Part shown: in pieces, positions 4,763-32,468 of the stretch
Layout: each line of letters opens with the position of its first letter
How positions within the stretch are numbered: position 1 is the stretch's first letter
Assembly: GCA_947627745.1 (NCBI GenBank)
Contig: CANQXH010000011.1
Span: forward strand, 1-40,257
Length of the DNA: 40,257 bases
Reading direction: 5' to 3'
Origin: an uncultured Oscillospiraceae bacterium
GTDB taxonomy: Bacteria > Bacillota > Clostridia > Oscillospirales > Oscillospiraceae
Translations under genes and position numbers: made by a program
Notes under the pieces: generated by a model
The model's input: only the letters and a program-made list of their open reading frames with translations
Databases searched by the model: none
Told to the model about the DNA's origin: nothing

Positions 4763-4791
4763 TTGACAAATGGCCCGCCGCATAGTATAAT
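4763..4791 (+). promoter_or_regulatory. Near-perfect sigma-A promoter of the glycan locus
   Basis: Consensus TTGACA (4763-4768) and consensus TATAAT (4786-4791) are separated by 17 bases, the best promoter match in the window. The predicted transcript start is near 4798. It faces the 29-kb plus-strand glycan cluster, whose genes are separated by short gaps or overlaps, so it may drive much of it. Confidence 0.85.
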
Positions 4792-4797
4792 AGCAAC

Positions 4798-4833
4798 GCT
4801 ATGGGCGGATTGCGCCGCTTTTCATAGCTTTTT
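4798..4833 (+). terminator. Terminator-like hairpin at the very start of the glycan transcript
   Basis: GCTATG (4798-4803) pairs with CATAGC (4823-4828). An inner GGCG/CGCC stem (4804-4807 with 4813-4816) closes a GATTG loop, a six-base bulge lies on the 3' side, and five T follow directly (4829-4833). It begins at the predicted +1 of the consensus promoter, so most initiations could abort after about 35 bases unless antitermination occurs. This fits an early attenuator for a long exopolysaccharide operon. The bulge weakens the fold, so function is inferred. Confidence 0.5.
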
Positions 4834-4885
4834 CCCATGCCTATTAAATTTGTATACTTTACGACACATTGAAAGGAGCGGTCGC

Positions 4886-4999
4886 ATGATTCAGTCTGCC
4901 AATAGTTGGGAAGCATGCCGGGCCGCTTCTATTATGCGCTTCAAAATTGGCAAGCCGCCGTTATCCATCCAGCCGGGACCTGAGAAAGCTGCCGCGTGA
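4886..4999 (+). CDS. 37-residue leader ORF in the glycan operon 5' region
   Basis: An ATG preceded by GAAAGGAGCGGTCGC, a strong ribosome site at good spacing, opens 37 codons (MIQSANSWEACRAASIMRF..., ending EKAAA, TGA). It lies between the promoter and rfbA. I recognise no family, and the peptide has no clear membrane segment. Its stop codon abuts the left arm of a long-loop hairpin (4989-5036), so ribosomes finishing this ORF would prevent that stem from forming. That arrangement resembles a regulatory leader peptide. It could instead be a small protein of its own or a chance frame. Confidence 0.45.
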   Translation: MIQSANSWEACRAASIMRFKIGKPPLSIQPGPEKAAA

Positions 5000-5036
5000 C
5001 GATGGCGCGGGAATGAGAAACGGAATACCGCGGCAG
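4989..5036 (+). promoter_or_regulatory. Long-loop hairpin between leader ORF and rfbA
   Basis: CTGCCGCG (4989-4996) and CGCGGCAG (5029-5036) form a perfect 8-bp stem with a 32-base loop. The left arm is the last coding part of the 37-codon leader ORF. No T run follows, so it is not a simple terminator. An alternative short hairpin, GAAGC/GCTTC, lies upstream at 4910-4929. A role in coupling leader translation to downstream expression is inference only. Confidence 0.35.
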
Positions 5037-5095
5037 ACATGGCGAATAAAAAGAAACCGTTTGACGAATTCGGTCAAAAACAGGGGGACGCAGGA

Positions 5096-5980
5096 ATGAA
5101 GGGAATTATTTTAGCGGGCGGATTGGGTACACGGCTGCATCCGCTGACATTGGCGATGTCAAAGCATTTACTGCCGGTCTACGACAAGCCAATGATTTAT
5201 TACCCGCTTTCCACGCTGATGCTGGCAAAGGTGCGGGATATTCTCATGATTTCTACGGAGCAGGACGTTGAAAAATATCGGAAATTGTTGGGCGACGGCC
5301 ATCAATTTGGCGTGAATTTAAGCTATGCCGTACAGGCGTCCCCGGACGGGATCGCGCAGGCGTTTCTCATCGGCAAAGAGTTCATTGGCGAGGAGTCCTG
5401 CGTTCTGATCCTGGGGGACAATATCTTCTACGGAAGCAACTTTACAAGCAAGCTGCTCCGGGCGGGCAGGAATGCGGACCTGGGCCAAGCCACGATTTTT
5501 GGATATTATGTAAAGCATCCGGAGCGATTTGGCGTAGTTGAATATGATGACAACGGCCAGGTGGTTTCCATTGAAGAAAAGCCTCGGAAGCCAAAGAGCA
5601 ATTACGCGGTTGTGGGCCTGTACTTCTACCCTGCGGGGGCGGCGGAAATGGCCGGGCGTGTGGAGCCATCTCCCAGAGGGGAGCTGGAGATCACAAGCAT
5701 GAACGAGATGTATTTGAAGGCCGGGAAGCTGAATGTAGAGATTTTGGGCCGTGGCAACGCCTGGATGGATGTGGGGACAGTCGAGAGCCTGAGCGACGCG
5801 TCCATGTTCATTCGGATGGTGGAGCAGCGGCAGGGCATTCAGATCTCCGCCCCGGAGGAGATCGCCTACCGGTACAAATGGATCAGCAAAGAGGAATTGA
5901 TAAAATCCGCCAATAGATACGGAAATACCTCCTATGGCGCCCATCTGCGCGCGGTGGCGGAAGGAAAAATGAATTGGTAA
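5096..5980 (+). CDS. rfbA: Glucose-1-phosphate thymidylyltransferase RmlA/RfbA
   Basis: 294-residue cytoplasmic nucleotidyltransferase that makes dTDP-glucose from glucose 1-phosphate and dTTP, the entry to dTDP-deoxysugars. The N-terminal GGLGTRLHPLT signature, LPVYDKPMIYYPLS, LILGDNIFYG and the C-terminal GNAWMDVGT are all textbook. I start at MKGIILAGG (5096), preceded by AGGGGGACGCAGGA, because family members begin there. An upstream in-frame ATG at 5039 lacks a ribosome site. No rmlB, rmlC or rmlD follows in the window, so the dTDP-glucose must be used by enzymes encoded elsewhere or by the unusual enzymes downstream. It is the first full-length gene of the glycan cluster. Confidence 0.93.
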   Translation: MKGIILAGGLGTRLHPLTLAMSKHLLPVYDKPMIYYPLSTLMLAKVRDILMISTEQDVEKYRKLLGDGHQFGVNLSYAVQASPDGIAQAFLIGKEFIGEESCVLILGDNIFYGSNFTSKLLRAGRNADLGQATIFGYYVKHPERFGVVEYDDNGQVVSIEEKPRKPKSNYAVVGLYFYPAGAAEMAGRVEPSPRGELEITSMNEMYLKAGKLNVEILGRGNAWMDVGTVESLSDASMFIRMVEQRQGIQISAPEEIAYRYKWISKEELIKSANRYGNTSYGAHLRAVAEGKMNW

Positions 5981-6029
5981 AGCGATCTTGAGATGATAAT
6001 CCTAAGGAATCAGTGGCAGGAGGAAAAAT

Positions 6030-7055
6030 ATGCCGACAGTTAACAATTTCAATGCGGATGAGAAAATCATGAGATATCTGGATAAGCTGGACTATTTTTT
6101 TAATGGTCATAAGACGCTTATCGTTACGGAGTTTGACTTGACGAACCGGTGCAACAACAGATGCCCGGGATGCTGCGGCGTCAATGGAAATGGCGCGGAA
6201 CTGTCGCGGCATCAGGTGGAGCTGGTGGTAAAGAGTATCGCGGATATGGGGGGACAGGGCGTGATCCTGTCAGGCGGGGGGGAACCCCTGATTAGTCCGC
6301 AGTTTGTTTATGCGGTTACCGAATTGAAGAACAGGGGCATCAAGCTGGGCCTTAACTCCAATGGCCTGGCGCTTACAGAGGAATTGGCAGAATTGATTGC
6401 CAAAAACTTTGAGTATTTCCGAATCAGCCTGGACGCCGCGACTCCTGCGCTGTATGAGAAGACGCATGGAATGCCGGAACGGGCGTTTCTTAAGACGGTA
6501 GACAATATACGCCTATTCTCACGGGTAAAGAAGGAATTGCATAGTCCGGTGAGCTTTGGCGTCGGCTTTTTGACGAGCGAGGAAACCGCCGCGGAGATGG
6601 AGGATTTTGTCCGTTTGGTAAAAGACTGCGGCGCTGACTTCGCGCAGTTTAGGCCCTTTACTGGAAATATGTGCGATATCACTGAAGAGTATCTGCGCAT
6701 TAAGGAAAAATATGAAACAGACTGCTTCGCGGTGCGCGCATCCCTGCAAAAATACCGGGAGATGAAAACAGGAGGAGACCGGAATTACGACAAATGCCGG
6801 GGAATGTTTTTCTCCACGGTGATTACCGCCGACGCGAAGGTGTTTTCCTGCCTCCACCATCGTCAGGAAGAACAGCATTATTTGGGCCAGATCAGCGACA
6901 CCGTCAGCCTTTCAGATATTTTCCGAAGCGCCCGCATGAGGGAGGTCTACGAAAATATGGACTGTTCGCAGTGCCCCACGCTGTGCAGAAACGATGTGTT
7001 TAACCGGACGCTGAATACGTTGTCATTTGACGTGGCGCATTGTGAGTTTCTGTAG
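6030..7055 (+). CDS. Radical SAM enzyme with SPASM/twitch-like C-terminal cysteines
   Basis: 341 residues. The radical SAM 4Fe-4S motif CNNRCPGC (Cys41, Cys45, Cys48; CX3CX2C) is followed by the SAM-contacting LSGGGEP and GLNSNG stretches. The C-terminal part carries further cysteines (YDKCRGMFF, VFSCLHH, CSQCPTLC, AHCEFL) in a pattern like the SPASM or twitch auxiliary-cluster domain. A ribosome site GGCAGGAGG precedes the ATG. It sits between rfbA and a sugar aminotransferase gene. A role in an unusual sugar-nucleotide reaction (deamination, dehydration or epimerisation) is inferred from context. The substrate cannot be read from sequence, and radical SAM maturation of a peptide is the main alternative. 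Confidence 0.85.
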   Translation: MPTVNNFNADEKIMRYLDKLDYFFNGHKTLIVTEFDLTNRCNNRCPGCCGVNGNGAELSRHQVELVVKSIADMGGQGVILSGGGEPLISPQFVYAVTELKNRGIKLGLNSNGLALTEELAELIAKNFEYFRISLDAATPALYEKTHGMPERAFLKTVDNIRLFSRVKKELHSPVSFGVGFLTSEETAAEMEDFVRLVKDCGADFAQFRPFTGNMCDITEEYLRIKEKYETDCFAVRASLQKYREMKTGGDRNYDKCRGMFFSTVITADAKVFSCLHHRQEEQHYLGQISDTVSLSDIFRSARMREVYENMDCSQCPTLCRNDVFNRTLNTLSFDVAHCEFL

Positions 7056-7215
7056 AAGTACAGACCGGGAATATGCGCTGAACCGCTCTCTGCAAGGAAA
7101 ATCATCGAACGCCAAAATGGGACAACTCGGGCAAAAACCGATTCAGGAGCGCCGCTTTTGAAATTCGCTTTTACAGTCACTGAGTTGTAACCTTCATTTG
7201 CTACAATGTTCATTG

Positions 7216-7236
7216 GCAGAGGACTTGTTCCTCTGC
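7216..7236 (+). promoter_or_regulatory. Perfect 8-bp hairpin upstream of the DegT aminotransferase gene
   Basis: GCAGAGGA and TCCTCTGC flank a five-base loop within the 235-base gap between the radical SAM gene and the aminotransferase. No T run follows, so it is unlikely to terminate. The gap is otherwise featureless; a TACAAT at 7202-7207 has no matching -35. It may be an RNA-processing or stability element. Confidence 0.3.
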
Positions 7237-7290
7237 TGGATGTGCATTGTCAAAAGCAAGCACACAAAAAGAAAAAAGGAGGGGCTGTTT

Positions 7291-8391
7291 ATGGAGAAAA
7301 TCAATGTTATTCGCTCATCGATGCCCCCATTTGAAGAATATGTAGAAGAGATTCGGGACATTTGGGACAATCGATGGCTGTCAAATTGCGGCCCTAAGCA
7401 CCAAACATTGGAGCAGGAACTGTCAAAATATCTCGGGGTAGACAATACTTCTCTGTTTTGCAATGGCCACACAGCCTTGGAGGCCGCGTTTTCCCTGCTT
7501 CCCCCAGGCTCGGAAGTGATCACAACGCCCTTTACATATGCCTCGACGACTCTTGCCATTGCCCGATGCGGTCTCATTCCGGTATTTTGCGATATTGAGC
7601 CAATGTATTATACGATTGATCCGGAGAAGATTGAGGCGCTAATAACGGAAAAGACGGCGGCAATTGCGCCGGTCCATGTTTACGGAAACCTGTGCGATTG
7701 GCGCGGGATCCGGGAGATTGCCGCAAAGCATGGCCTGAAAGTGATTTATGATGCGGCCCACGCCTTCGGGGTCAAGGACGGAACCATCGGCGCCGGTAGT
7801 CTTGGAGATGTTTCTATGTTCAGTCTCCATGCGACAAAGGTCTTTCACACCATTGAGGGGGGCTGCTTAACCTATCACGATGCGGAGCTTGCCTCGCGGT
7901 TCAAAGCGTGGAGCCAGTTTGGCATGTACGAAAAAGACTGTACGGAAATTCTGGGCACCAACGCCAAGATGACGGAGTTTTCGGCAGCTATGGGGCTGTG
8001 CAATCTGCGCCATGTGTCGGAATATATTGCGCGGCGGCGTGATGCGGCTATGCGTTACCGGGAGAGACTTTGCCGCAGGGACGGCTTGGTGCTTTGTGGG
8101 GAACAGCGGGGAGTCGTGTCAAATTATGCATACATGCCGGTTCAGATAGATCCGGCAAAATTCGGGCATGATAGGGATGAACTAGCGGGGTATCTTGCAG
8201 AGCGTGAAATATATGTAAGAAAATATTTCTATCCTCTCACCTCCAGCTTCCCCCTTTGCCAGAGGAATTTCACGATTCAGGAGACCCCGGTGGCGGACAA
8301 GATTTCTGAGCGGATCCTATGTCTGCCGCTATATTCCGATTTGGAGATTCAGGACGTGGACAGGATCTGCGACGCCATCCTGGCGTTTTGA
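7291..8391 (+). CDS. DegT/DnrJ/EryC1 sugar aminotransferase
   Basis: 366-residue PLP-dependent enzyme of the fold that aminates keto-sugar nucleotides. Family landmarks are NRWLSNCGPKHQTLEQEL near the N terminus, FCNGHTALEAA, VIYDAAHAFG (the cofactor-stacking Asp) and SLHATKVFHTIEGG with the Schiff-base Lys183. I start at MEKINVIRSSMPP (7291), preceded by AAAAGGAGGGGC. The open frame runs 31 codons further upstream without a better site. With RmlA upstream, a 3- or 4-amino-dideoxy dTDP-sugar is one plausible product, but no dTDP-glucose 4,6-dehydratase is present here. Confidence 0.88.
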   Translation: MEKINVIRSSMPPFEEYVEEIRDIWDNRWLSNCGPKHQTLEQELSKYLGVDNTSLFCNGHTALEAAFSLLPPGSEVITTPFTYASTTLAIARCGLIPVFCDIEPMYYTIDPEKIEALITEKTAAIAPVHVYGNLCDWRGIREIAAKHGLKVIYDAAHAFGVKDGTIGAGSLGDVSMFSLHATKVFHTIEGGCLTYHDAELASRFKAWSQFGMYEKDCTEILGTNAKMTEFSAAMGLCNLRHVSEYIARRRDAAMRYRERLCRRDGLVLCGEQRGVVSNYAYMPVQIDPAKFGHDRDELAGYLAEREIYVRKYFYPLTSSFPLCQRNFTIQETPVADKISERILCLPLYSDLEIQDVDRICDAILAF

Positions 8392-8479
8392 TTCTGGCGG
8401 AACATAACATGTTTTTCAGCATTTTTTCTTTGCGTGCTGATCCGCACGGTTGATTTTGATAAAAGGACTGAAATGAGTT

Positions 8480-9637
8480 ATGCGCATTTCAAAAATGGCA
8501 AAAGTAATCGAGCCCTCGCTTACGAGGAAGCTCTTCGATATGGCAAAGGGGTACCCGGATGTGGTAGATTTCACGCTGGGGGACCCGGATTTTCCAACGC
8601 CGGAACACATCAAGCGCGCCGCCTGCCAGGCTATTATGGAGGGGAAAACCAAGTACTCCGCCAACGCGGGACTTCAGGAGCTTCGGAACGTAGTTGCTGA
8701 CAGGATCCAGCGGGAGACGGGCGTGGGTTACGACCCCGCCACGGAGATCCAGATAACGGTGGGAGCCATGGAGGCCATCTATCTGGCGCTGTGCTGTCTC
8801 ATCGATCCGGGCGACGAGGTAATCATCCCCTCGCCCCACTGGGTAAATTACAGGCACATGACATCGCTTCTTGGAGGCGTCCCGGTCCTTGTCGATGCGG
8901 ATGAGGAGCATGACTTCGTGGTGACCGTGGAGAGTATCCTGAATGCCGTCACTGAGAGAACAAGGGCCATCATCATTAACTCCCCCAATAACCCCACCGG
9001 CACGGTCTATGACCGGGCCACCCTGGAAGCCATAAGCCGGGTCGCGGTGGAGCGGGACATCACGGTGATCTTTGACGAGTGCTACAAGAGCATCCTCTAT
9101 GATGGGGCGGTGTTTACATCGATTTTGGATTTTCCTGGCATGAAGGAGCATGCGGTCGTTATCAACAGCTGCTCCAAGCGCTATGCCATGACGGGCTGGC
9201 GGCTGGGATATGCGGCGGGGCCGGCGGAGCTTATCGCCAATATGCCCAAACTGCAGGAAAACATCGCCGCCTGTGCGCCGCTGCCGTCACAGTATGCGGC
9301 GATCGTTGCGCTGTCCGGCAGCGATGAGGAGCCCAACGCCATGCGGGATGGGTATGAGAAGAGAAGAAATATTCTCCTTGAACAGATCAATAAAATCGAT
9401 AAACTCAGCTGCAAACCACCCAAGGGAACTTTTTATGCGCTGGTCAATATTAAAAAGACCGGTATGAAAAGTGAGGAGTTTGCCTATGCGCTTTTGAAGG
9501 CCGTCCATGTGGCGGTGGTGCCGGGGATTACCTATGGGGATGCCTGCGAGGGGTATGTCCGGATCGCTTACACCGTTACAGAGGAAAAGCTCCGGGAGGG
9601 CCTGAGAAGAATCGGGGAATTCGTCAATTCCCTCTGA
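8480..9637 (+). CDS. Class I/II PLP aminotransferase, aspartate aminotransferase-like
   Basis: 385 residues of fold-type I aminotransferase: FTLGDPDFPTPEHI, KYSANAGLQELR, IINSPNNPTGTVYD, IFDECYKSILY and the lysine loop SCSKRYAMTGWRLGY with Lys233. This is the family of amino-acid aminotransferases (AspC, AraT-like), not the class V fold of 2-aminoethylphosphonate transaminase PhnW. The start is uncertain: ATG 8480 has its nearest AGGA 13 bases away, and an ATG at 8495 is weaker. It ends 12 bases before the ATP-grasp gene, with that gene's ribosome site overlapping its stop, so the pair likely works together, perhaps making an amino acid or keto acid that the ATP-grasp enzyme ligates. Confidence 0.85.
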   Translation: MRISKMAKVIEPSLTRKLFDMAKGYPDVVDFTLGDPDFPTPEHIKRAACQAIMEGKTKYSANAGLQELRNVVADRIQRETGVGYDPATEIQITVGAMEAIYLALCCLIDPGDEVIIPSPHWVNYRHMTSLLGGVPVLVDADEEHDFVVTVESILNAVTERTRAIIINSPNNPTGTVYDRATLEAISRVAVERDITVIFDECYKSILYDGAVFTSILDFPGMKEHAVVINSCSKRYAMTGWRLGYAAGPAELIANMPKLQENIAACAPLPSQYAAIVALSGSDEEPNAMRDGYEKRRNILLEQINKIDKLSCKPPKGTFYALVNIKKTGMKSEEFAYALLKAVHVAVVPGITYGDACEGYVRIAYTVTEEKLREGLRRIGEFVNSL

Positions 9638-9649
9638 GGAGTGTATGTG

Positions 9650-10852
9650 TTGAAGAAACTTTTGATGCTGGGCGGGTCCATGCAGCAATTACCCGCCATA
9701 AAGCGTGCCCGGGAGATGGGGAATTATGTGATTGTCTGCGACTACCTCCCGGATAATCCGGGGCAGTACCATGCGGATGAATATCACAATGTGAGTACTA
9801 CCGACTGCGACGCGGTGCTGGCGCTTGCGAGAGAGCTCAGGATCAATGGCATTGTGGCCTATGCCTCCGACCCGGCGGCGCCGACGGCGGCGTTCGTTGC
9901 GGAGAAGCTGGGTCTTCCGGGGAACCCATATGAGTCCGTGCGGCTCCTGACAAGAAAGGACCTTTTCCGAAGTTTCCTCCGGGAACATGGATTCAACACC
10001 CCTGAGGCTAGGGGCTACGATACATATGAGCAGGCGATGGCGGACATTGACCGTTTTCGTTTTCCCGTGATGGTGAAGCCTGTGGACTCCTCCGGCAGCA
10101 AGGGTGTCGTCAAAGTGTATGATGCGGCTGGCGTGAAGGCCGCTGTGGAGGAGGCGCTGTCCTATTCCAGAAGCGGTCGCTTCATTATTGAGGAATTTAT
10201 TGAGAAAAAAGGCTATCAGGTCTCCGGCGACGGCTTTTCCGTGGACGGCAGGCTGGTCTTCACCAGCTACGGCAACGAGCTGTACAGCGGCAAGGGCACC
10301 AGAGAATATGTGGCGTTGGGAGAGTTTTGGCCGTCGCTTTTGACACCGGAGCAAAAGAACAAGGTGGACTGTGAGCTTCAGCGGCTGATTACGGCCTTGG
10401 GCATGAGGACGTGCGCCTATAATATTGAGGTTATCCTGGACAAAAACGACATACCCTATGTTATCGAGCTGGGCCCGCGCAACGGCGGGAGCTATATTCC
10501 GCAGCTCATCAAATACGCCACAGGTGTGGACCTCATCGATTATACCGTTCATGGCGCTTTGGGGGAGCCCTGCGGGGACCTGAAGATGACTCCTACGCAC
10601 GGTGTCTGGAGCAACTACATGATCCTTAGCAAGAAAAGCGGGGCATTTCGGGAGCTCTGGTTTGACGAGGATTTCCGCAAAAACAACCTTTTAGAGGTTC
10701 ACTGCACTGCCAAACCCGGTGACGCGGTTCATGCTTACCAAAATACCACCCATTCCCTGGGCACTATTCTTTTCAAAGCCAATTCGGTGGAAGAGATGGT
10801 GAAGATTACGGATAATATAGAGAGCTACTACCGGGTGGAAATTGATGATTAA
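9650..10852 (+). CDS. ATP-grasp ligase (carbamoyl-phosphate-synthase/peptide-ligase-like)
   Basis: 400 residues. An N-terminal Rossmann-like pre-ATP-grasp domain (KKLLMLGGSMQQLPAIKRA, VIVCDYLPDNPGQY, DEYHNVSTTD) is followed by the ATP-grasp core, with MVKPVDSSGSKGV, FIIEEFIEKKGYQVSGDG and the metal-binding YNIEVILDKNDIPYVIELGP. Enzymes of this group join a carboxylate to an amine using ATP. I chose the TTG at 9650 (reading MKKLLMLGG). It has a GAGGAG ribosome site eight bases upstream, and relatives start at this residue; GTG at 9647 or 9641 is less good. It may attach an amino acid or other acid to an amino sugar of the repeat unit. Confidence 0.82.
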   Translation: MKKLLMLGGSMQQLPAIKRAREMGNYVIVCDYLPDNPGQYHADEYHNVSTTDCDAVLALARELRINGIVAYASDPAAPTAAFVAEKLGLPGNPYESVRLLTRKDLFRSFLREHGFNTPEARGYDTYEQAMADIDRFRFPVMVKPVDSSGSKGVVKVYDAAGVKAAVEEALSYSRSGRFIIEEFIEKKGYQVSGDGFSVDGRLVFTSYGNELYSGKGTREYVALGEFWPSLLTPEQKNKVDCELQRLITALGMRTCAYNIEVILDKNDIPYVIELGPRNGGSYIPQLIKYATGVDLIDYTVHGALGEPCGDLKMTPTHGVWSNYMILSKKSGAFRELWFDEDFRKNNLLEVHCTAKPGDAVHAYQNTTHSLGTILFKANSVEEMVKITDNIESYYRVEIDD

Positions 10853-10878
10853 AATTTTGGTTAAAGAGGGAAAGAACC

Positions 10879-11330
10879 ATGCAGGCGCTGCAAAATGTAC
10901 AAAACAAATACTTATGCGTTTCCTGAAGAAAGCAGAAATTGGCCCGACTGATAGCCGAAGATACATTGCCGGTCGTTGATCAGGATATGTGCAATGTGAA
11001 GTCCCTGACACATTTTACATGCGATATGGCAAAAGGATATTGGATATCTTTATTGCCATGTTGGCTCTTGTCGTAACAGCGCCTATCAATCTTGTGATTA
11101 TGGTGATTACCTATTTTGATGTGGGACGGCCAGTTTTATTCAAACAATTGCGAAAAGGTAAAAGCAATAAATTGTTTACACTGATCAAGTTTCACAATAT
11201 GACAAATGAAACGGATGCAAACGGTGCTCTGTTACCGGCGTTTTTATGGGTTGTTTTAAGAATGAAAGAGTAATGACATCCGGTGAGATATCCGCTGAAT
11301 ATTATATGAGAGACGTTCTAATTTACCACT
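10879..11330 (+). pseudogene. Decayed copy of the phosphoglycosyl transferase gene
   Basis: The stretch aligns with the intact sugar transferase gene at 12933-13745. From ATG 10879 the frame reads MQALQNVQNKY..., hits TGA at 10924, and continues as LARLIAEDTLPVVDQD (intact copy: LAEQIARENLPKVNDG). It shifts frame near 10988 and then reads VPDTFYMRYGKRILDI, ITYFDVGRPVLFKQ and NMTNETDANGALLPA. After that the conserved catalytic part (SLDELLNFW, GPRP) is missing and the frame ends at 11271-11273. A following MTSGEISAE resembles the MTSEDVTEQ tail of the intact copy, so an internal deletion is likely. At least one stop, one frameshift and one deletion make it non-functional. Confidence 0.85.
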
Positions 11331-11355
11331 GCTTTTTGCTATGGAGGGTATCAAG

Positions 11356-11874
11356 ATGAGCTACAAATTACGCGACCTGAGAAAAGAAGATATGGCAGTA
11401 ATCAATGAATGGAGAAATGATCCCGAGTTGATAGAGAATGTTTGCGCACCCTTTAGATTTATAAATCTAGAAACAGATGAGATTTGGTTTAATCGTTATA
11501 TGTCTTCAAAAAGTAATGCGGTGCGGTGCGGTATTGTTGAGTGCGAAAGCGATCGTTTGATTGGATGTGTATATCTCTTAGATATTGACTGGGTGGCCCG
11601 CTGCGCTGAGCTGGGCATCATGATTGGATCACCTCTTGACCGTGGACGTGGGGGGGGTAAATTTGCTATAACAGCTATTTTGAAGCATGCTTTTTTAGAT
11701 TTAAACCTTCACAGAGTGCAGTTAGAGGTCCTTACTGAAAATATAAGAGCGCATAGTCTGTATAAAAAATGTGGTTTTAGAGATGAAGGAGAAAAGCGGC
11801 AGGCAGTTTATAAGAATGGCAGATACCTAGATATTACATTCATGGGCATTCTGAAAACGGAGTATACTATCTGA
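11356..11874 (+). CDS. GNAT acetyltransferase with a G8 tract in its acetyl-CoA loop
   Basis: 172-residue acetyltransferase of the RimJ/RimL/SpeG-like GNAT group: KLRDLRKEDM and NEWRNDPE at the N terminus, the acetyl-CoA pyrophosphate loop DRGRGGGKFAI (RxxGxG pattern), and NLHRVQLEVLTENIRAHSLYKKCGF at the C terminus. I start at MSYKLRD (11356), preceded by TGGAGGGTATCAAG; an in-frame ATG five codons upstream overlaps that ribosome site. In this neighbourhood it most likely N-acetylates an amino sugar, as PseH-type enzymes do. The RGRGGG segment is encoded through eight consecutive G, so slippage would switch the gene off; the tract reads in frame here. Confidence 0.85.
   Translation: MSYKLRDLRKEDMAVINEWRNDPELIENVCAPFRFINLETDEIWFNRYMSSKSNAVRCGIVECESDRLIGCVYLLDIDWVARCAELGIMIGSPLDRGRGGGKFAITAILKHAFLDLNLHRVQLEVLTENIRAHSLYKKCGFRDEGEKRQAVYKNGRYLDITFMGILKTEYTI
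11650..11657 (+). repeat. Poly-G tract (G8) inside the acetyltransferase gene
   Basis: Eight consecutive G encode part of the acetyl-CoA-binding loop. In this sequence the frame is intact; seven or nine G would truncate the protein. Such tracts are classic slippage sites, but the codons also encode conserved glycines, so it may be coincidental. Confidence 0.5.
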
Positions 11875-11979
11875 ACAGTTGAGTTTGCCCTCATGCCCGT
11901 TCTTCATGTTTAGTTCTACACCATGTGGAGGCTAATAGGCAGGGTGCACACGATAGGGAAATGAAGGGGAATTGGCCAT

Positions 11980-12933
11980 ATGGGAGAGATCGGCGGGTTT
12001 ATCGAGCTTTGGGAGAATACAGGCCCCATGCTGCACGATGGAGCTGTGGCTTTAAATTCCGCTAGAGGGTGCCTTGCGTACCTTATCGAGGCAAGGGGAA
12101 TTAAAAAGCTGGCGTTGCCGTTTTTTCTATGCGACTCTGTTTTAAAGCTTTGCCAGATTCTTGGCGTTGAGGTCAGCTTTTACCAGATCGACAAGTCTTT
12201 CCTGCCACGGAATGTCGCACTGAGTGATGGCGAGTGGCTATATCTTGTAAATGCCTATGGTCAGCTGGACAGCAATGAAATACGCACCTTTAGGGAGCGC
12301 TTTGGCCGTGTGATTATGGATAATGTCCAGGCATATTTCGATGAGCCAGTGGAAGGGATCGATACCTTGTACTCATGCCGAAAATTCTTTGGTGTGGCAG
12401 ATGGCGCATTTCTCTATACGGATGCTGTGCTTGGACACGAACTGGAGCGGGACGAGTCGTGGAACCGTATGAAGCATCTCCTAGGCAGGTATGATAGATG
12501 TGCTTCCGATTTTTACGGCATGTATGTGGCGTGGGAGAACGCTTTCGATGCACTTCCCTTTAAAAGGATGTCAAGACTAACGGAAAATCTCCTGCGGGGG
12601 ATCGACTATGGCTGGGCAAAACGGCGAAGAACCGAAAATTATGGTTATCTTAGCGAAAGGCTTGGGCACTTAAACAGGCTGAATCTCAAGAAGACCGAGG
12701 GACCGTTTGCGTATCCACTGCTGATTGATAACGGTCCCGAGCTTCGGAGAAAGCTCATAGCCCAAAAAATATATATTCCCACACTTTGGTCCAATGTGCT
12801 GGAGACTTGCACACCGGATACGCTGGAGTACGATTTGGCGGCCAACATCCTGCCGCTGCCATGTGACCACCGATATAGTGTGACAGAGATGGAACGCATA
12901 TGCAACCTAGTAGAAACAAGGGGAAATTACTGA
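11980..12933 (+). CDS. DegT-like PLP protein of surface-glycan clusters
   Basis: 317 residues, shorter than standard DegT aminotransferases. It retains the fold's order: substrate-side ALNSARGCLAYLIEARG, LYLVNAYGQLD, the Asp-containing RVIMDNVQAYFD, and SCRKFFGVADGAFLY with the candidate Schiff-base Lys135. The RKFF-GV-DGA motif marks a divergent subgroup usually found beside capsule and O-antigen genes. The exact reaction of the subgroup is not known to me. The ATG at 11980 is preceded by AAGGGGA. Its stop overlaps the ATG of the phosphoglycosyl transferase gene (TGATG), so the two are translationally coupled. Confidence 0.7.
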   Translation: MGEIGGFIELWENTGPMLHDGAVALNSARGCLAYLIEARGIKKLALPFFLCDSVLKLCQILGVEVSFYQIDKSFLPRNVALSDGEWLYLVNAYGQLDSNEIRTFRERFGRVIMDNVQAYFDEPVEGIDTLYSCRKFFGVADGAFLYTDAVLGHELERDESWNRMKHLLGRYDRCASDFYGMYVAWENAFDALPFKRMSRLTENLLRGIDYGWAKRRRTENYGYLSERLGHLNRLNLKKTEGPFAYPLLIDNGPELRRKLIAQKIYIPTLWSNVLETCTPDTLEYDLAANILPLPCDHRYSVTEMERICNLVETRGNY

Positions 12934-13745
12934 TGCCGGTTGAAAATGTAAATAAGGGCGTGCGATACCGTGACCTGACGGAAGAGCAGGTGAAGCTGCT
13001 GGCAGAACAGATCGCACGCGAGAATCTGCCCAAGGTCAACGATGGCTTTGTGGAGTTTGAGATCCCTGATACCTTCTATACAAGATACGGCAAGCGTGCC
13101 CTCGATATAGTTATTTCAGCTCTTGCACTGATCGTATTTTCCCCGATTATCCTGGTGGTGCTGATTGCCACCTACTTTGATGTTGGCAAGCCGATCCTGT
13201 TCAAGCAAGAGCGGATCGGAAAAGACGGAAGGGTGTTTACCCTAGTCAAGCCGCGCAACATGACAAATGAACGAGATGAAAACGGCATCCTGCTTCCCGC
13301 ACCCGAACGGATCACAAAATGGGGCCGGTTTGTCAGAAAGTATTCGCTTGATGAGCTGCTGAATTTCTGGAGCATTTTGAAAGGTGATATGTCTATTATT
13401 GGCCCGCGGCCGCTGAATGCTTTCTATGCGGCACGTTTTTCAAAACGCCATAATATGCGTCACAAAGTCCGGCCCGGCCTGGAGTGCCCACTTCATGACC
13501 CTTCCATGGGCGCCATGACCTGGGATAATCGTTTTGAAAATGACGTATGGTATGTTCAAAATATCAGCTTTAGAACCGATATAAAAATGCTCTTTTTACT
13601 ATTTCGAGATACTTTATGGGGTCGGGATCGGTGCAGCCGCGCCGATGCCGATGTTGGTGGTGATTTTATGGGGTATACTGAGAATGGTCAAGTCATGACA
13701 TCAGAGGATGTCACGGAGCAGCAGCTTATAGCTGTCATAACGTGA
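12933..13745 (+). CDS. Phosphoglycosyl transferase initiating repeat-unit synthesis (bacterial sugar transferase)
   Basis: 270-residue membrane enzyme that transfers a sugar 1-phosphate from a nucleotide sugar to undecaprenyl phosphate, the first membrane step of Wzx/Wzy glycan assembly. A soluble N-terminal stretch is followed by FYTRYGKRALDI, one hydrophobic membrane-inserted helix (LDIVISALALIVFSPIILVV), GKPILFKQERIGKDG, SLDELLNFWSILKGDMS and IIGPRPL, all hallmarks of the monotopic PglC/WcaJ-type family. The start at 12933 has AAGGGG upstream and overlaps the previous stop. Sugar specificity cannot be read. A decayed paralogue lies at 10879-11330, which suggests replacement of one initiating enzyme by another. 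Confidence 0.9.
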   Translation: MPVENVNKGVRYRDLTEEQVKLLAEQIARENLPKVNDGFVEFEIPDTFYTRYGKRALDIVISALALIVFSPIILVVLIATYFDVGKPILFKQERIGKDGRVFTLVKPRNMTNERDENGILLPAPERITKWGRFVRKYSLDELLNFWSILKGDMSIIGPRPLNAFYAARFSKRHNMRHKVRPGLECPLHDPSMGAMTWDNRFENDVWYVQNISFRTDIKMLFLLFRDTLWGRDRCSRADADVGGDFMGYTENGQVMTSEDVTEQQLIAVIT

Positions 13746-13783
13746 CTAATCTATTATATGTAGAATTATATGCAGGTGCAAAA

Positions 13784-14644
13784 ATGGATAAGTTTATTTT
13801 TGTAGGCAATCGTTTTTTCGTTTATGAAAAAATGATTAATATGGGCCTGGACGTGACAACTGTTTATGCGGTCAGAGATTCTTTTCTGGAAAAAGAGCTG
13901 TTGAATCGAAAAATTCCTTATGAGATCCTCCCGGGGAAAAAGGAGTTTATAGATCTACTAATGAGCGGCTGTTATGATTACCTTATTTCCAACGGTTGCC
14001 CTTATATTCTTCCAATTTCTAAATTAGCTGATGGGCATAAGAAATTCATCAATATTCACCCATCACTTCTTCCCGACATGAAAGGGAAGTCTCCGATCAA
14101 TGGTGCGCTACTATTTCACAGGCGGCATGGTGTTACATGCCACTATATGAATGATGGTATCGATAGTGGCAATGTGATTGCACAAATGGAAATCCCGCTG
14201 ACATACGATGTAAATCTTGATCTTTTGTATCAAATCTCTTTTAGGCTTGAAGGAGCAGTGTTTGAAAAAGCATATCAAAATGGTTTCCGCCCGTCAGATC
14301 CCATTTGCATACCAAAGCAGCCGATCTATTACTCCCGCAATGAGGCAGACAGGATTATTACAATCCATGACGGTTGGGATAAAGCCTTTTCAAAGATTCG
14401 CGCTTTTCATTTAGCGGGACAGTACCTCTATATTATGCACTCTGGTAAGCCATATGAGATTACGGGTGCAACGGTTATTACAAACCCTGTTGTGCGGGAA
14501 ATGTATTTTGATGATAAGTTGGAAAATTGTATTTGTGCGGTATATAGCGGTAAATATGTATTGGCGAAAATATGGGGCATGCTTCTGCAATTTGAGCTGT
14601 TAGATGTTGCTGGTTTGGCTGTCGGGGAAAGCTTAATTCGATAA
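13784..14644 (+). CDS. Formyltransferase-fold enzyme, probable sugar N-formyltransferase
   Basis: 286 residues of the formyl_trans_N fold shared with methionyl-tRNA and sugar-nucleotide formyltransferases. The catalytic triad is visible: NIHPSLLPDMKG gives Asn90 and His92, and DGIDSGNVIAQ gives Asp127. The C-terminal part differs from the tRNA-binding domain of Fmt, as in sugar formyltransferases that move a formyl group from N10-formyl-tetrahydrofolate to a dTDP-amino sugar. I start at MDKFIFVGNRFF (13784), preceded by AGGTG. An upstream GTG at 13742 that overlaps the previous stop would add 14 unlikely residues. Neighbouring aminotransferases could supply the amino group. Confidence 0.82.
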   Translation: MDKFIFVGNRFFVYEKMINMGLDVTTVYAVRDSFLEKELLNRKIPYEILPGKKEFIDLLMSGCYDYLISNGCPYILPISKLADGHKKFINIHPSLLPDMKGKSPINGALLFHRRHGVTCHYMNDGIDSGNVIAQMEIPLTYDVNLDLLYQISFRLEGAVFEKAYQNGFRPSDPICIPKQPIYYSRNEADRIITIHDGWDKAFSKIRAFHLAGQYLYIMHSGKPYEITGATVITNPVVREMYFDDKLENCICAVYSGKYVLAKIWGMLLQFELLDVAGLAVGESLIR

Positions 14645-14791
14645 ATTCTTGAATACAGAAAAAAGATTGAAATTATGATGCAGTCCAAATGCTGTCTGAT
14701 TTGTTGGAGAATGCCTTACAATATAAATGTGAAAACAATTGGAAAACCTTGCATTTGTAGAATAATTGATATGATTTGTAGGTGAAATAAA

Positions 14792-15691
14792 GTGACGGAC
14801 GTAAGAAAACTGCAGCTTGTGGAGAAAGAATTGCTCAAAGTAGCTGTTGATATCTGCGAAAAGGAACATCTGAGGTACTACATCATAGGTGGTACTTTGC
14901 TTGGTGCCGTGCGCCACAAAGGCTATATTCCCTGGGACGACGATACGGATGTTGCGATGCCAAGAGAAGATTATGACAGATTTTTGCAAGCGGCAGAATC
15001 CTATCTTTCGGACCATGGTGGCTATAAATTAGAAACATATGAAAAAACAGCCGGATACTTTCGCTATTTTAGCCGTGTTACGGATCGCCATGTAAAAATG
15101 CGCTTTGTGACTTCGACAGAAGGTTTGCTTGAAAATGTTTGGGTGGACATATTCCCCTTGGATGGGATGCCAGACGGAAAATTTGCATCAAAAATTCATG
15201 CTCTACACATGCTGTACCACCGTGCGATGTATATGTTTTCGATATTCAGCAAGTTTGAGCATCCAAAGCGAAGCGGCAGACCTTGGTATGAAAAGTTTCT
15301 GATTTGGGTCGGCTATCATTTCCCCGTTGAAAAATTTCTAGAGCCCTATAAAAGATTGATGTTAATGGACAAGGCCATGCGAAAATATCCCACGGTATCA
15401 TCTAACGTATGGATCAATTTTATGAGTTCCTACAAAATGAAAGAGATGTTTCCCAGAGAGGTCTTTGGCGAGGGGCGGCTATATGAATTTGAAGGCATGA
15501 TGCTTAAAGGCCCACAGGATGCGGAAACCTATCTTACCCAGGTGTATGGCGATTATATGTCACCACCACCTATCTCCGAGCGGGGTGGACACTGTGTGGA
15601 GATCATTGAAAGCGAATCGGGCTATTTGGATAAACTGTTTGGAGGAGAGCAATGCCACAGAAATGTAGCCGGGGGGGGTACACCTACCTGA
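14792..15691 (+). CDS. LicD-family phosphotransferase, first copy
   Basis: 299-residue LicD family protein (nucleotidyltransferase fold). Members move a phospho-alcohol such as phosphocholine or ribitol phosphate from a CDP-activated donor to a glycan. The hallmark GGTLLGAVRHKGYIPWDDD followed by TDVAM is at about residues 33-56, with VWVDIFPLDGMPDG and the C-terminal FEGMMLKGP and YGDYMSPPP. GTG start with GTAGGTGA upstream. The last residues (CHRNVAGGGTPT) are beyond the family's usual end. They are encoded by DNA that also holds the start of the second copy, and they cross a G8 tract, so the tail depends on tract length. With CMP-phosphonate genes downstream, a phosphonate donor is the favoured substrate. 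Confidence 0.88.
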   Translation: MTDVRKLQLVEKELLKVAVDICEKEHLRYYIIGGTLLGAVRHKGYIPWDDDTDVAMPREDYDRFLQAAESYLSDHGGYKLETYEKTAGYFRYFSRVTDRHVKMRFVTSTEGLLENVWVDIFPLDGMPDGKFASKIHALHMLYHRAMYMFSIFSKFEHPKRSGRPWYEKFLIWVGYHFPVEKFLEPYKRLMLMDKAMRKYPTVSSNVWINFMSSYKMKEMFPREVFGEGRLYEFEGMMLKGPQDAETYLTQVYGDYMSPPPISERGGHCVEIIESESGYLDKLFGGEQCHRNVAGGGTPT

Positions 15692-16601
15692 TTATAGTAC
15701 CTGTCTGGATACTCAGCAGCAAACAGCCGCTGGAGCACTTAAGGACATCAGGAAATTGCAGCTTGTCGAAAAAGAACTGCTCAAAGCTGTTGTTGATATC
15801 TGCGAACAGGAGCATTTGAGGTACTACATCATTGGTGGTACTTTGCTTGGCGCTATACGCCATAAAGGATATATCCCGTGGGATGACGACACTGATATTG
15901 CGATGCCAAGAGAAGATTATGACAGGTTTTTGCATGTGGCGGAGCGCTATCTTTGCGCATATGACGGTTACAGTTTGGAGACTTACCGTGGAACAGAGGA
16001 CTGTCTTCTTTGCATATCGCGCATTACGGACTGCCACGTTAAACTTCGAATAGCTGAATCCGTAACAGGGCGCCAAGATAATATCTGGGTAGATATATTC
16101 CCCTTGGACGGGATGCCGGGGGGAAAGCTCATGTTTAAATTTCACGCATTTCGCCTGCTGTATCATCGTGCCCTGTTTGCCTATTCCAGGTTCAGTCAGT
16201 TTAAGCATTTGGAAAGAGAAAAAAGACATTGGTATGAGAAGCCGTTGTTATGGCTAGGCTACCATTTCCCTATAGAAAAATTTCTGTCGCCGCGAAAATG
16301 CTTGGAATCGTTGGACAAAGCTATGCGCAGATATCCCTGTGAGACATCGCCTCAATGGATCAATTTTATGAGCGTCTACAAAATGAAAGAGGTATTTTCC
16401 AAAGAGGTTTTCGGTAACGGTGCATTGTATGAATTTGAGGGCATGCAGTTACGAGGGCCGCAGGACTATGAAACGTATCTTACCCAACTCTATGGCGACT
16501 ATATGACGCCGCCACCTATCTCCGAGCGGGGTGGGCACCGTGCAGAGATCATAGAGACCGAACCCGGCTATTTGGATAAGATCTGCGCCGGAAAACAATA
16601 A
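15652..16601 (+). CDS. LicD-family phosphotransferase, second copy; out of frame here at a G8 tract
   Basis: A tandem, diverged duplicate of the preceding gene. The conserved body (from KLQLVEKELL at 15753, with GGTLLGAIRHKGYIPWDDD, WVDIFPLDGMPGG and FEGMQLRGP) is intact to 16601. It has no usable start in its own frame: TAG at 15666 closes it upstream, and only CTG 15705 or TTG 15756, both without good ribosome sites, precede the conserved domain. ATG 15652 has GGAGGAG six bases upstream but is one base out of frame and, as written, makes a 55-residue peptide ending at 15817-15819. Adding one G to the tract at 15671-15678 gives MPQKCSRGGVHLPDYST... running straight into the LicD domain. I read it as a phase-OFF gene; an assembly error is the alternative. 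Confidence 0.75.
15671..15678 (+). repeat. Poly-G tract (G8), candidate phase-variation switch for LicD2
   Basis: Eight G lie 17 bases after the LicD2 ATG and inside the last codons of LicD1. Predicted states: G8 (seen) gives LicD1 ending at 15691 and LicD2 off. G9 gives LicD2 on from ATG 15652 and LicD1 with a longer tail ending at 15819. G7 joins the LicD1 frame directly to the LicD2 body as one fusion protein. Homopolymer slippage during replication is the known mechanism for such loci, for example in lipooligosaccharide genes of Haemophilus and Campylobacter. Confidence 0.65.
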
Positions 16602-16671
16602 ACAATCCTTGGTAAATGGCGATACCGACGCTGCCAATGCAAAGGTAAAAAGACTGCAAGGAGAAAGACAG

Positions 16672-17688
16672 ATGATCATCACGAAGACCCCGTTTCGGAT
16701 GTCGTTTTTTGGCGGCGGGACGGACATGGAGGACTTTTTCAGAGTCCACGGTGGAGCCGTTCTCTCCACCACCTTCGATAAATATTGCTACGTCAATGTT
16801 CGGCATTTGCCCCGCTTTTTTCACTATAAAAGCGAGCTGAGCTATGCGGAGACGGAGCGGGTGTCCTCCTTTTCGGAGATTCGCCACCCCGCGATCCGGA
16901 ATGCCATGCAAATGCTGGATATTCATGAAATACATCTGTCCTATGATGCGGATCTGCCCGCCCGGTCGGGATTGGGCACCAGCAGCTCCTTCGCGGTTGG
17001 GATGCTGAACGCTTTTTACGCACTGAAGGGGAAATATGCGGACCGGCAGAAGTTGGCTGCGGAGGCCATCTATTTGGAGCGGGTCCTCTGCAACGAAACC
17101 GGTGGCTGGCAGGATCAGATCGCGGCGGCCTACGGCGGCTTCAACCGGATTGATTTTTCCAAAGCAGGCTTTTCCGTGAGACCGGTTATCATTTCGCCGG
17201 AGCGAAAGCGGCAGCTGAACGACAATCTGATGCTGTTTTTTACCGGCTTTACCCGCTTTTCTGCGGAGGTGCAGGCAGCCAACGCCAAGGACCGCAAAAA
17301 TAAGTCTGCGCAGCTGCTAAAGATGCGCTCCCTGGTAGACGAGGCGGAAGGGGTCCTGACCAACAAAGCGGCGGATCTGGATGACTTCGGCCGCCTACTG
17401 GACGCCACGTGGAGGCTCAAGCGGCAGACGGGCTCCGTGATCTCCACGGACAGCATCGATAGCCTTTATGAGAAAGGAATCGCGGCTGGCGCCCTGGGCG
17501 GAAAGCTCCTGGGGGCGGGGGGCGGAGGGTTCCTGCTGTTTTATGTCCAGCCGGAGCGGCAGGCGGCAGTGAGGGAGGCCATGAAGGGGCTTCTCCATGT
17601 TCCTTTCGCTTTCGAGGACGATGGAACCCGCGTCATTTACTATGCACCGGAGAGCTATGAACCGGAGCAGGATGCGTGCGTAAAGTGA
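16672..17688 (+). CDS. hddA: D-glycero-alpha-D-manno-heptose 7-phosphate kinase (HddA-like GHMP kinase)
   Basis: 338-residue GHMP-family sugar kinase. The N-terminal TPFRMSFFGGGTDMEDFF, the ATP loop LPARSGLGTSSSFAVG, CNETGGWQDQIAAAYGG and the glycine-rich C-terminal GKLLGAGGGGFLLF match heptose 7-phosphate kinases. These phosphorylate C1 to give heptose 1,7-bisphosphate for the GDP-heptose route. Start 16672 (MIITKTPFR) is preceded by AAGGAGAAAGACAG; a longer frame upstream is rejected. The gene overlaps the heptose guanylyltransferase fusion by 13 bases, and GmhA follows, so the assignment is supported by neighbours. Confidence 0.88.
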   Translation: MIITKTPFRMSFFGGGTDMEDFFRVHGGAVLSTTFDKYCYVNVRHLPRFFHYKSELSYAETERVSSFSEIRHPAIRNAMQMLDIHEIHLSYDADLPARSGLGTSSSFAVGMLNAFYALKGKYADRQKLAAEAIYLERVLCNETGGWQDQIAAAYGGFNRIDFSKAGFSVRPVIISPERKRQLNDNLMLFFTGFTRFSAEVQAANAKDRKNKSAQLLKMRSLVDEAEGVLTNKAADLDDFGRLLDATWRLKRQTGSVISTDSIDSLYEKGIAAGALGGKLLGAGGGGFLLFYVQPERQAAVREAMKGLLHVPFAFEDDGTRVIYYAPESYEPEQDACVK

Positions 17689-18938
17689 AGACGGTTATTA
17701 TGGCTGGGGGCAGGGGCACACGGATCGCCCAATTGGTGGGAAGTATTCCCAAGCCCATGATTCCCATAGAGAACAAGCCCGTGCTGGAGCGGGAGATCGA
17801 ATGCCTGCGCGAACAGGGCTTCACGGAGATTCTTCTTACCGTCGGCTATATGGCGGACAAGATCATCGACTATTTTGGCGACGGGAAACAGTTCGGCGTA
17901 AGCATCGAATACTTTGTGGAAAAGGAGCCCTTGGGGAACGCTGGAGCTCTGTTTCGGCTGTGGGAGAAGCTTACTGAGGACTTTCTTCTACTCAACGCCG
18001 ATTCGGTGTTTCATATCGACTTCAACCGCTTTGTGGCTTTTCATAAAGAGCACGGCGGCCTGGCCACCCTGTTTACCCATCCCAATGACCATCCCTATGA
18101 CAGCGGCCTGATTATTTCCGATGAAAGAGGCGCCGTTTCGCACTGGCTGACCAAGGAAGACCAGCGTCCCCAGTGGTACAAAAACCGCGTCAATGCGGGG
18201 CTCCACATTCTCTCCCCCAAGCTGCTGGAAAATCGGCCGGATACCCCAAAAGTGGATCTGGACCGGCAGGTTCTGAAGCCCCTGGCGGGTACGGGGAAGC
18301 TGTTCTGCTATGACAGCCCGGAATATGTCAAGGATATGGGTACTCCGGAGCGGTACAAAGCCGTGTGCCGAGACTTTGCCGCTGGCCGGGTTACGGCCCG
18401 AAATCTGAAAAACAAGCAGAGGGCTATCTTTCTGGACCGGGACGGCACTATCAACAGCTATGTGGGCTTCTTGCGAAACATTGACAACTTCAAGCTTTTG
18501 CCCGGTGTGGCGGAGGCGATCCGGGAGATCAATCGGTCCGGATATCTGGCCATCGTGGTGACCAACCAACCGGTGATTGCCCGGGGCGAGGTGACATGGG
18601 AACAGCTTCGGGAGATCCACAACAAGCTGGAGACCCTTCTGGGCGAAGAAGGGGCCTATCTGGATGGGATCTACGTCTGCCCCCACCATCCCCACAAGGG
18701 CTATCCAGGGGAGATCCCGGAGCTGAAAATCGACTGTGACTGTCGGAAACCGAAGCCTGGGCTGCTGCTTCGGGCGGCGCAGGACTTTAACATCGACCTT
18801 GCCGCTTCCTGGATGGTGGGGGACAGTGAAAACGATATGCTTGCGGGGCAAGCGGCGGGGTGCCGCTGCGTGAAGCTGGAGACCGATGGGGATCTGAGGG
18901 CGGCGGTACAGGCAATTTTGGAGGGTAAATCTGAATGA
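17676..18938 (+). CDS. Fused heptose 1-phosphate guanylyltransferase (HddC) and heptose 1,7-bisphosphate phosphatase (GmhB)
   Basis: 420 residues with two enzymes in one chain. Residues 1 to about 235 are a nucleotidyltransferase (MAGGRGTRIAQLVGSIPKPMIP, LLLNADSVF, EYVKDMGTPERY) like HddC. From about 248 the chain is a HAD phosphatase like GmhB: FLDRDGTINSYVGF with both nucleophile aspartates, VVTNQPVIARGEV, the zinc-binding CPHHPHKG...CDCRKPKPG, and MVGDSENDM. Together these remove the C7 phosphate of heptose 1,7-bisphosphate and then make GDP-D-glycero-alpha-D-manno-heptose. GTG 17676 has GGAG eight bases upstream; GTG 17685, overlapping the previous stop as GTGA, is an alternative. The last bases overlap gmhA (ATGA). 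Confidence 0.9.
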   Translation: MRKVKTVIMAGGRGTRIAQLVGSIPKPMIPIENKPVLEREIECLREQGFTEILLTVGYMADKIIDYFGDGKQFGVSIEYFVEKEPLGNAGALFRLWEKLTEDFLLLNADSVFHIDFNRFVAFHKEHGGLATLFTHPNDHPYDSGLIISDERGAVSHWLTKEDQRPQWYKNRVNAGLHILSPKLLENRPDTPKVDLDRQVLKPLAGTGKLFCYDSPEYVKDMGTPERYKAVCRDFAAGRVTARNLKNKQRAIFLDRDGTINSYVGFLRNIDNFKLLPGVAEAIREINRSGYLAIVVTNQPVIARGEVTWEQLREIHNKLETLLGEEGAYLDGIYVCPHHPHKGYPGEIPELKIDCDCRKPKPGLLLRAAQDFNIDLAASWMVGDSENDMLAGQAAGCRCVKLETDGDLRAAVQAILEGKSE

Positions 18939-19579
18939 CGGAAGCGGTAAAATCGCATTTGAATACGCTGCTGGAGCGATACCCGGCGCTCATCATTTGC
19001 CGGGCGGATATCCAAAAAGCATATGAGGCGCTTGCCGCCTGCTTTGATAATGGCGGGAAATTGCTAGTTGCCGGAAACGGGGGCAGTGCGGCGGACGCGG
19101 AGCATATTGTGGGAGAGCTGATGAAAGGCTTTGTGAAGCCCAGAAGGCTGAACCGAGAGGATGCTGAAGCCCTGACAGCGGTAGACGGGGAACTGGGGCC
19201 GGTTCTGGCGGAAAATTTGCAGTGCGCTCTTCCAGCCATTGCGATGGACGGACATCCGGCACTCTCCACGGCCTATCTGAACGACTGTGAACCGGCGCTG
19301 TGCTTTGCCCAGCAGGTGAACGGTTTTGGCAAAGCGGGGGATGTGTTTCTGGGGATTTCCACCAGCGGAAACAGTAAGAATGTTCTCTATGCGGCGGTGA
19401 CGGCGAGGGCGAAGGGCATGAAGACCGTCGGCCTGACGGGCGCAAAAGAGAGCAAGCTCGCGCTGCTGTGCGATGTATGCATCCGGGTACCGGAAACCGA
19501 GACCTATAAAATCCAGGAGCTCCACCTACCGGTGTACCACACCCTGTGCTTGATGGTGGAGGAACGGTTTTTTGGTTGA
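18935..19579 (+). CDS. gmhA: Sedoheptulose 7-phosphate isomerase
   Basis: 214-residue SIS-domain isomerase that converts sedoheptulose 7-phosphate to D-glycero-manno-heptose 7-phosphate, the first heptose-specific step. The signature AGNGGSAADAEHIVGEL, the SIS motif GISTSGNSKNV and the C-terminal ELHLPVYHTLCLMVEERFF are diagnostic. ATG 18935 overlaps the stop of the HddC-GmhB gene. With HddA, HddC and GmhB, the complete GDP-heptose pathway is encoded within 16672-19579. Confidence 0.93.
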   Translation: MTEAVKSHLNTLLERYPALIICRADIQKAYEALAACFDNGGKLLVAGNGGSAADAEHIVGELMKGFVKPRRLNREDAEALTAVDGELGPVLAENLQCALPAIAMDGHPALSTAYLNDCEPALCFAQQVNGFGKAGDVFLGISTSGNSKNVLYAAVTARAKGMKTVGLTGAKESKLALLCDVCIRVPETETYKIQELHLPVYHTLCLMVEERFFG

Positions 19580-19622
19580 CCAATTAATTCTATTGATTCT
19601 ATTGAGAAAGTGACGATTTAAT

Positions 19623-28680: not shown

Positions 28681-28735
28681 GCCGAAAAGCATTTTTAGAA
28701 AAGAACAATAACTGTCTAAGGATGGAGAAAGCAAT

Positions 28736-32456: not shown

Positions 32457-32468
32457 GGAGGAATCGAA

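Follow-up and report, generated by a model that had tools for sequence, protein, structure and literature searches.

The window, a stretch of 40,257 nucleotides from an uncultured Oscillospiraceae bacterium, is part of a 150-contig, 2.33-Mb genome that is 98% complete. Two licD genes lie in tandem on its + strand (14792-16601). The first, licD1 (14792-15691), starts with a GTG behind an AGGTG (14780-14784), encodes 299 aa and ends with a TGA (15689-15691), while the second, licD2, has an open body frame of 310 codons (15669-16601) that runs without a stop to its TAA (16599-16601). Both products match PF04991 over profile positions 1-227 of 227, LicD1 with 161.6 bits and LicD2 with 155.9 bits (cut-off 22.6), and they are 68% identical over 287 residues. 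Their similarity ends at Gln287 and is followed by a 12-residue LicD1 tail that is coded through a tract of exactly eight G (G8, 15671-15678), by which the two genes are joined. A Shine-Dalgarno-like GGAGGAG (15641-15647) lies within the end of licD1, and this motif and the ATG at 15652 are located at the end of the LicD1 homology, with six bases between the end of GGAGG and the ATG. The frame opened by this ATG (15652-15819) crosses the tract and has 55 codons with a stop at 15817; its first six codons form the presumed licD2 leader, and the tract starts in its seventh. The coordinates given in the first-pass annotation hold, as does its placing of the tract in the last codons of LicD1, and translation confirmed its frame arithmetic, by which the LicD2 body is one base out of frame with the ATG 15652 frame. 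After G8, the frames continue for 3 codons (LicD1's own), 46 codons or 306 codons (LicD2). GGAGG followed by ATG after four to nine bases occurs 8 times on the + strand of the window, and at least two of the other occurrences are listed ORF starts (6030 and 32469). These results show that the ribosome-site signal of ATG 15652 is good and that it is not unique in the window.

The same window carries a set of phosphonate genes on the + strand (27373-34051), encoding a PEP mutase-cytidylyltransferase fusion, a phosphonopyruvate decarboxylase, an Fe-alcohol dehydrogenase and a second cytidylyltransferase, identified by Pfam and by the NCBIfam models TIGR02320 (415.4, cut-off 319.55) and TIGR03297 (465.8, cut-off 312.5). 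PF01467 is found in two proteins of the window, as is PF04991, and PEP mutase, phosphonopyruvate decarboxylase, cytidylyltransferase and LicD-like transferase, the Pnt-type gene set, thus occur together. Heptose-type sugar genes (below NCBIfam cut-offs), a sugar transferase and a flippase are also present. In the Pnt pathway of oral anaerobes, phosphonates are activated by cytidylylation beside LicD-like transferases (PMC6697681), and the PEP mutase-cytidylyltransferase fusion with LicD-like transferases in its neighbourhood is as in the window; in contrast to the reading given below, no switching is described for Pnt in the part of that report on which we draw (PMC6697681), and the group transferred in the window is putative. 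Because phosphonate genes lie in the window and Pnt loci contain LicD-like transferases, we infer by analogy that the two LicDs would transfer a CMP-activated phosphonate, not phosphocholine, to the surface polysaccharide of the locus, and the genes at 27373-34051 are possible makers of the transferred group. An acetolactate-synthase-like TPP enzyme and an HMGL-like aldolase lie between these phosphonate genes, and the locus as a whole is of capsule type.

Decay of the LicD2 body had been named in advance as an argument against a switch at the tract, and we found the body to be undecayed. Besides having no stops, it shows 0 differences from its relative P0001 at 48 columns conserved at 90% or more, versus 42 differences at the 263 scored columns overall (P about 0.0002). 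Of the 50 columns with a conservation of at least 90%, LicD2 is off the consensus at 2, and P0001 has both departures too. Between licD1 and licD2, dN/dS is 0.14 and dS is almost saturated. Across 42 aligned LicDs (40 of 120 listed database proteins and the two of the window), the residues D72, D73, D74 and D76, which we take to be the conserved acidic motif of nucleotidyltransferase type, are invariant, window LicD2 included. The AlphaFold model of LicD2 has a mean pLDDT of 90.2, and the 13 best PDB matches of the LicD fold model are all chains of the solved relative FKRP (best E 2.6e-6), with modest TM-scores by query length (0.37-0.43). LicD2 is identical to P0001 at 235 of 278 residues and LicD1 to P0002 at 229 of 299, which shows at the protein level that the two paralogues each have their own relatives. 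For this locus, no close relative was found among 136 genus, 400 family and 394 order genomes (overlapping sets). The pair was rejected as a feature of the genus, the best congener being 44% identical, and a viral origin was rejected too, as the one pattern match in viral contigs is not a relative. Taken together, selection has preserved the LicD2 body although the frame ahead does not lead into it, and seems to have done so in at least two lineages. Such a situation requires a switch, recoding or a poor start at a TTG.

On balance we think it probable, by a modest measure, that the G8 joining the two tandem licD genes acts as a switch of the slipped-strand type, by replication slippage. Slips at G8 would decide in which of three frames reading continues. 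In the phase found here, LicD1 would end three codons past the tract and the LicD2 leader would enter a dead frame, and LicD2 would be off or very low, made at best from a TTG at 15756. In another phase the leader would read into LicD2 and turn it on, and in a further phase LicD1 would read into LicD2 and give a fusion. Such a switch would vary the phosphonate decoration of the surface polysaccharide from cell to cell. Two features of a slipped-strand locus are present, a coding homopolymer that links a start to an intact out-of-frame body and the preservation of that body, and the joint is a candidate phase-variable locus.

The first-pass annotation had stated that the LicD2 frame has no usable start, which is too strong. 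A TTG at 15756, the sole ATG, GTG or TTG in the LicD2 frame ahead of the domain, has an AAGGA (15741-15745) 10 bases upstream, the whole element spanning 15741-15758. A protein begun here would start at LicD2 residue 30, with 15 residues before the Pfam LicD domain (from residue 16 of the product), and would retain the whole of that domain. It is conceivable, then, that there is no switch, that licD1 simply ends at 15691 with a Gly-rich tail, that licD2 is translated from TTG 15756 by reinitiation and that ATG 15652 is accidental. Database proteins lend this some support. The LicD1-type protein P0002 (on 4 contigs) has the tail Gly-Gly-Gly-Thr-Pro-Thr of LicD1 and thus uses the LicD1 frame through the tract, the annotation of P0001 begins at an internal residue, and P0010 begins one residue earlier in the alignment than the TTG product. 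However, the TTG product omits Arg28, which is kept in 39 of the 40 rows that cover this column, and it begins inside helix 1 of the predicted fold (residues 10-47), near the middle of the helix; the pLDDT of the model averages 52-58 over residues 1-20, 85 over residues 21-30 and about 97 later. Because TTG 15756 lies inside a predicted helix and loses the conserved Arg28, it could serve as a start, though a poor one. P0001 as annotated begins past both Arg28 and Gln31, and its start looks like a stop-gap call. In addition, the 12 bases just before the TTG, coding for Asp26-Lys29, differ at only 3 sites between licD1 and licD2, which argues weakly against a start behind them (P about 0.08 if licD1 alone is constrained and 0.004 if neither is). 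We therefore regard translation from the TTG as unlikely.

The layout of the licD joint recurs elsewhere in the genome. The locus L119 (G000:C24:22037-22044) encodes an acyltransferase (Pfam Acyl_transf_3, 56 bits) that is preceded by a G-rich ribosome-site-like stretch, an ATG, 17 codons and a G8, with the body in another frame; the first ATG, GTG or TTG of the body frame is an ATG at 1558, 50 bases past the tract. The protein database contains P0121, with a 342-aa body identical to that of L119 in frame with exactly the leader of L119. P0121 is found on 2 contigs of at most 2847 bases, while the L119 tract lies beyond 22 kb of its own contig, and P0121 therefore does not come from that contig. 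Its source is given as "-", the sign otherwise used for proteins of the window, and it may thus stem from a different fragment of this sample or genome. As a comparison of sequences, this pair is our best evidence that tract length varies in or near the species. Among 120 listed homologues of L119 (P0121-P0240), the leader motif was recognised in 104, whose leaders look mutually unrelated. Gly runs of 3 or more number 31 in 2258 leader residues versus 1 in 37485 body residues (Fisher 9e-38, a value that treats the relatives as independent), which suggests that the Gly runs in these leaders are encoded by poly-G. Of the other 16 homologues, 9 begin at a Met inside the body, 1 (P0218) begins just before the body and 6 have leaders in which the motif was missed. 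The internal and near-body starts of the 9 and the 1 match what an out-of-frame leader would force. Leader DNA was covered for L119 and three congeners, and in these congener acyltransferases (L183, L184 and L185) no G-run of 6 or more was found at the leader. It looks as if many acyltransferase genes of the L119 type may carry a poly-G switch.

Tracts at the 3′ ends of other licD genes give a further parallel. Among 23 other distinct tandem licD junctions in the fetched loci (34 rows, from which 6 of the window and 5 duplicates were removed), a G-run of 7 or more was present at 2, in G129 of the same genus (G10) and in the Lachnospiraceae locus L033 (G7). In G129, the G10 lies at the 3′ end of the first licD (L179, 2319-2328, reverse complement), whose own frame stops 4 codons past the tract; another frame stays open for 25 codons, and its TGA stop overlaps the start codon (ATG) of the next licD. 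The proteins P0242 and P0243, identical to the first licD product of G129 at 191 of 250 and 177 of 238 residues, have tails of 25 and 28 aa like that of the other G129 frame, with 16 identical residues in the 25 and 14 in the 28. The tails of P0244 and of P0241, the protein of G129 itself, are short. Judged from these tails, the frame after the tract does differ between relatives at the G129-type joint, and one state would link the two genes end to start. In L033, the G7 (4879-4885) is at a licD end, and a G9 (6232-6240) lies near the end of a nearby gene that is nucleotidyltransferase-like by reading only.

G-runs at licD 3′ ends are occasional, and we rejected them as a general feature. Across the fetched loci with the window excluded, a G-run of at least 7 lies within 230 bases at 2 of 146 licD ends; as background, G or C runs of this length number 13 in the 918137 bases of the fetched loci, some of them duplicates. 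When G7 was sought by pattern within 100 bases after a licD C-terminus, a gap outside which the window falls, 2 of 400 family genomes matched. One match is a licD with G7 just past its stop, while the other, judged from its letters, is not a licD; a reversed control gave 0 among the rows listed. At the protein level, licD tails have 4 Gly runs of 3 or more in 2202 residues versus 3 in 26932 body residues (Fisher 0.00095; 16 of 120 proteins dropped for want of the motif, and P0002 and P0003 near relatives), and a second set has 4 in 1928 tail residues versus 2 in 22206 body residues (Fisher 0.0005; 29 of 115 dropped, and all four cases in one small clade). Because the cases are near relatives or belong to one clade, the independent cases of Gly-run licD tails are few.

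The window has 2 runs of G8 or C8 and longer, versus means of 0.65 to 2.62 in Markov simulations of orders 1 to 4, and it is not rich in G-runs by count. In the whole genome, G8 is the longest G-run and occurs 5 times; 2 of these tracts sit in the window, which is 1.7% of the genome (binomial about 0.003, computed by hand and post hoc). The second G8 of the locus (11650-11657, + strand) lies in a GNAT acetyltransferase gene (ORF 11341-11874; PF13302, 69.8 bits) whose frame is open, and it is another candidate switch. The remaining three lie in the L119 acyltransferase, in a helix-turn-helix/TPR regulator-like gene (L116) and in an intact uronate isomerase-like gene (L120), the last two named by eye. 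The regulator-like gene is frame-broken at its G8, whereas in the sister genome G128 a copy that is 98% identical upstream combines a shorter run with an open frame (L116 1501-1508; L187). Run lengths thus differ between sister genomes in a gene unrelated to licD (G8 in G000, shorter in G128). A G128 gene that reads by eye like a TrkH transporter is also frame-broken at a G8 (L212, 1501-1508). Because ordinary genes are also broken at G8, such as this regulator and the transporter, a broken frame at G8 need not mean a switch. For the licD locus itself G128 is uninformative, because it has only one match of 62 bases to window positions 4600-19600. Each of the 5 genomic G8 tracts is on the + strand of its contig and 0 are on the - strand, possibly by chance.

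Instead of a switch, the tract could reflect an error of assembly or base-calling, or licD2 could have been lost recently by chance, with a true tract of another fixed length. That the window is a contig of a 150-contig assembly and that G8 interrupts an ordinary regulator would fit an error or a chance loss. Against it, P0002, from other contigs, has the same LicD1 end, the other G and C runs of 7-8 in the window lie within long open frames, and the shorter run and open regulator of the sister genome are unlike systematic under-calling of longer G-runs, which we rejected on this ground. We consider an error or chance loss quite improbable. Loss of mismatch repair as a cause was rejected as well, since the genome has a MutS_I match within an open frame of 890 codons.

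Eight G in a row could serve as a slip site. Fixed recoding, in which ribosomal frameshifting or RNA polymerase slippage at G8 would yield some LicD2, by way of the ATG 15652 frame or of licD1, from unchanged DNA, could account for an out-of-frame layout that seems constant (window, P0002 tail, P0001 internal start) while the body is conserved, but we hold it to be very unlikely, since no frameshift-stimulating RNA structure was found beside G8, where the RNA is not unusually stable (folding z-scores -0.70, 0.01 and 0.36), and since the in-frame acyltransferase P0121 exists, by which that layout appears to vary in DNA.

The slippage switch proposed in the first-pass annotation is thus partly supported. 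In its favour are the anatomy, the undecayed body and three parallels, namely L119 with P0121, the Gly-run leaders of the L119 homologues and the frame differences at the G129-type licD 3′ tract. Against it, no second tract length was seen at the G8 of the window, the one other database protein showing the tract (P0002) being in the same frame, only 2 of 23 junctions have a tract, and three congeners have no leader G-run. No in-frame LicD2 was found among the 120 listed of 5800 matches, and none of the matches listed is a LicD2 relative with an intact non-repetitive start, as judged on proteins. Because P0002 has the same frame and P0001 an internal start, a fixed arrangement, whether by an alternative start or by recoding, retains some weight.

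G-tract phase variation is best known from Gram-negative pathogens. Among gut commensals, a clear case is the Bifidobacterium pilus: in Bifidobacterium breve UCC2003, a G-tract replication-slippage switch of sortase-dependent pili was shown by experiment (PMC9187656). As in the window, an upstream start with a ribosome site opens a short frame that leads through a G-tract to an out-of-frame body without a good start, and, as proposed here, a surface structure of a gut commensal is affected (PMC9187656); in contrast, as the source presents it, the pilus case concerns one gene with experimental proof (PMC9187656), whereas the window has the joint of two homologous genes, known from sequence only. 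The three-state switch had been called unusual in the first-pass annotation, and it is not wholly without precedent, since in Helicobacter canadensis a late poly-G tract was proposed to merge HCAN_0660 and HCAN_0661 (PMC2823697). There, poly-G at the 3′ end alters the C-terminal sequence, with a possible fusion of two coding sequences in one instance, but the tracts are of 10 or more with ranges of length in the reads, the G8 of the window being shorter, and, as far as the cited account goes, the merger is one of hypothetical proteins in a different phylum (PMC2823697). In Neisseria, poly-G in pptA makes phosphorylcholine on pilin phase-variable (PMC10434233). As in the window, the coding sequence of a decoration transferase contains a homopolymeric G tract; unlike the window genes, PptA is not a LicD, and no two-gene joint is described in the portion of that report cited here (PMC10434233). 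The literature as far as searched, by titles and the starts of abstracts under open licence, gave no poly-G switch of licD or acyltransferase genes in gut Clostridia. What the window holds at G8 is most likely a switch of a known kind in a little-described place.

Only tentatively can this be extended to the idea that poly-G licD joints and acyltransferase leaders form a widespread, little-described contingency system of gut Clostridia, in which slippage at the joint would pick LicD1 alone with LicD2 off, LicD2 on, or a LicD1-LicD2 fusion or coupled pair, and would vary capsule phosphonate from cell to cell. If the leaders and joints are slippage switches, many uncultured gut Clostridia would alter their surface glycans randomly, which would affect how sensitive they are to phages and how hosts recognise them, and annotation with internal starts or "broken" calls would hide such switches. 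With a single tract serving as the tail of one enzyme and the beginning of its paralogue, two decoration enzymes would be compactly tied to each other. Poly-G contingency as a general rule across the genus was rejected. A G9 or longer run is present in 73 of 136 genus genomes, and most runs lie between genes or in ordinary genes, not in surface genes, as read by eye, without family searches, at 56 loci from part of the genus list, 7 of which were set aside for a run near a contig end. As a minor observation, TA follows the run in 16 of 88 runs of 7 or more versus 8 of 134 runs of 6.
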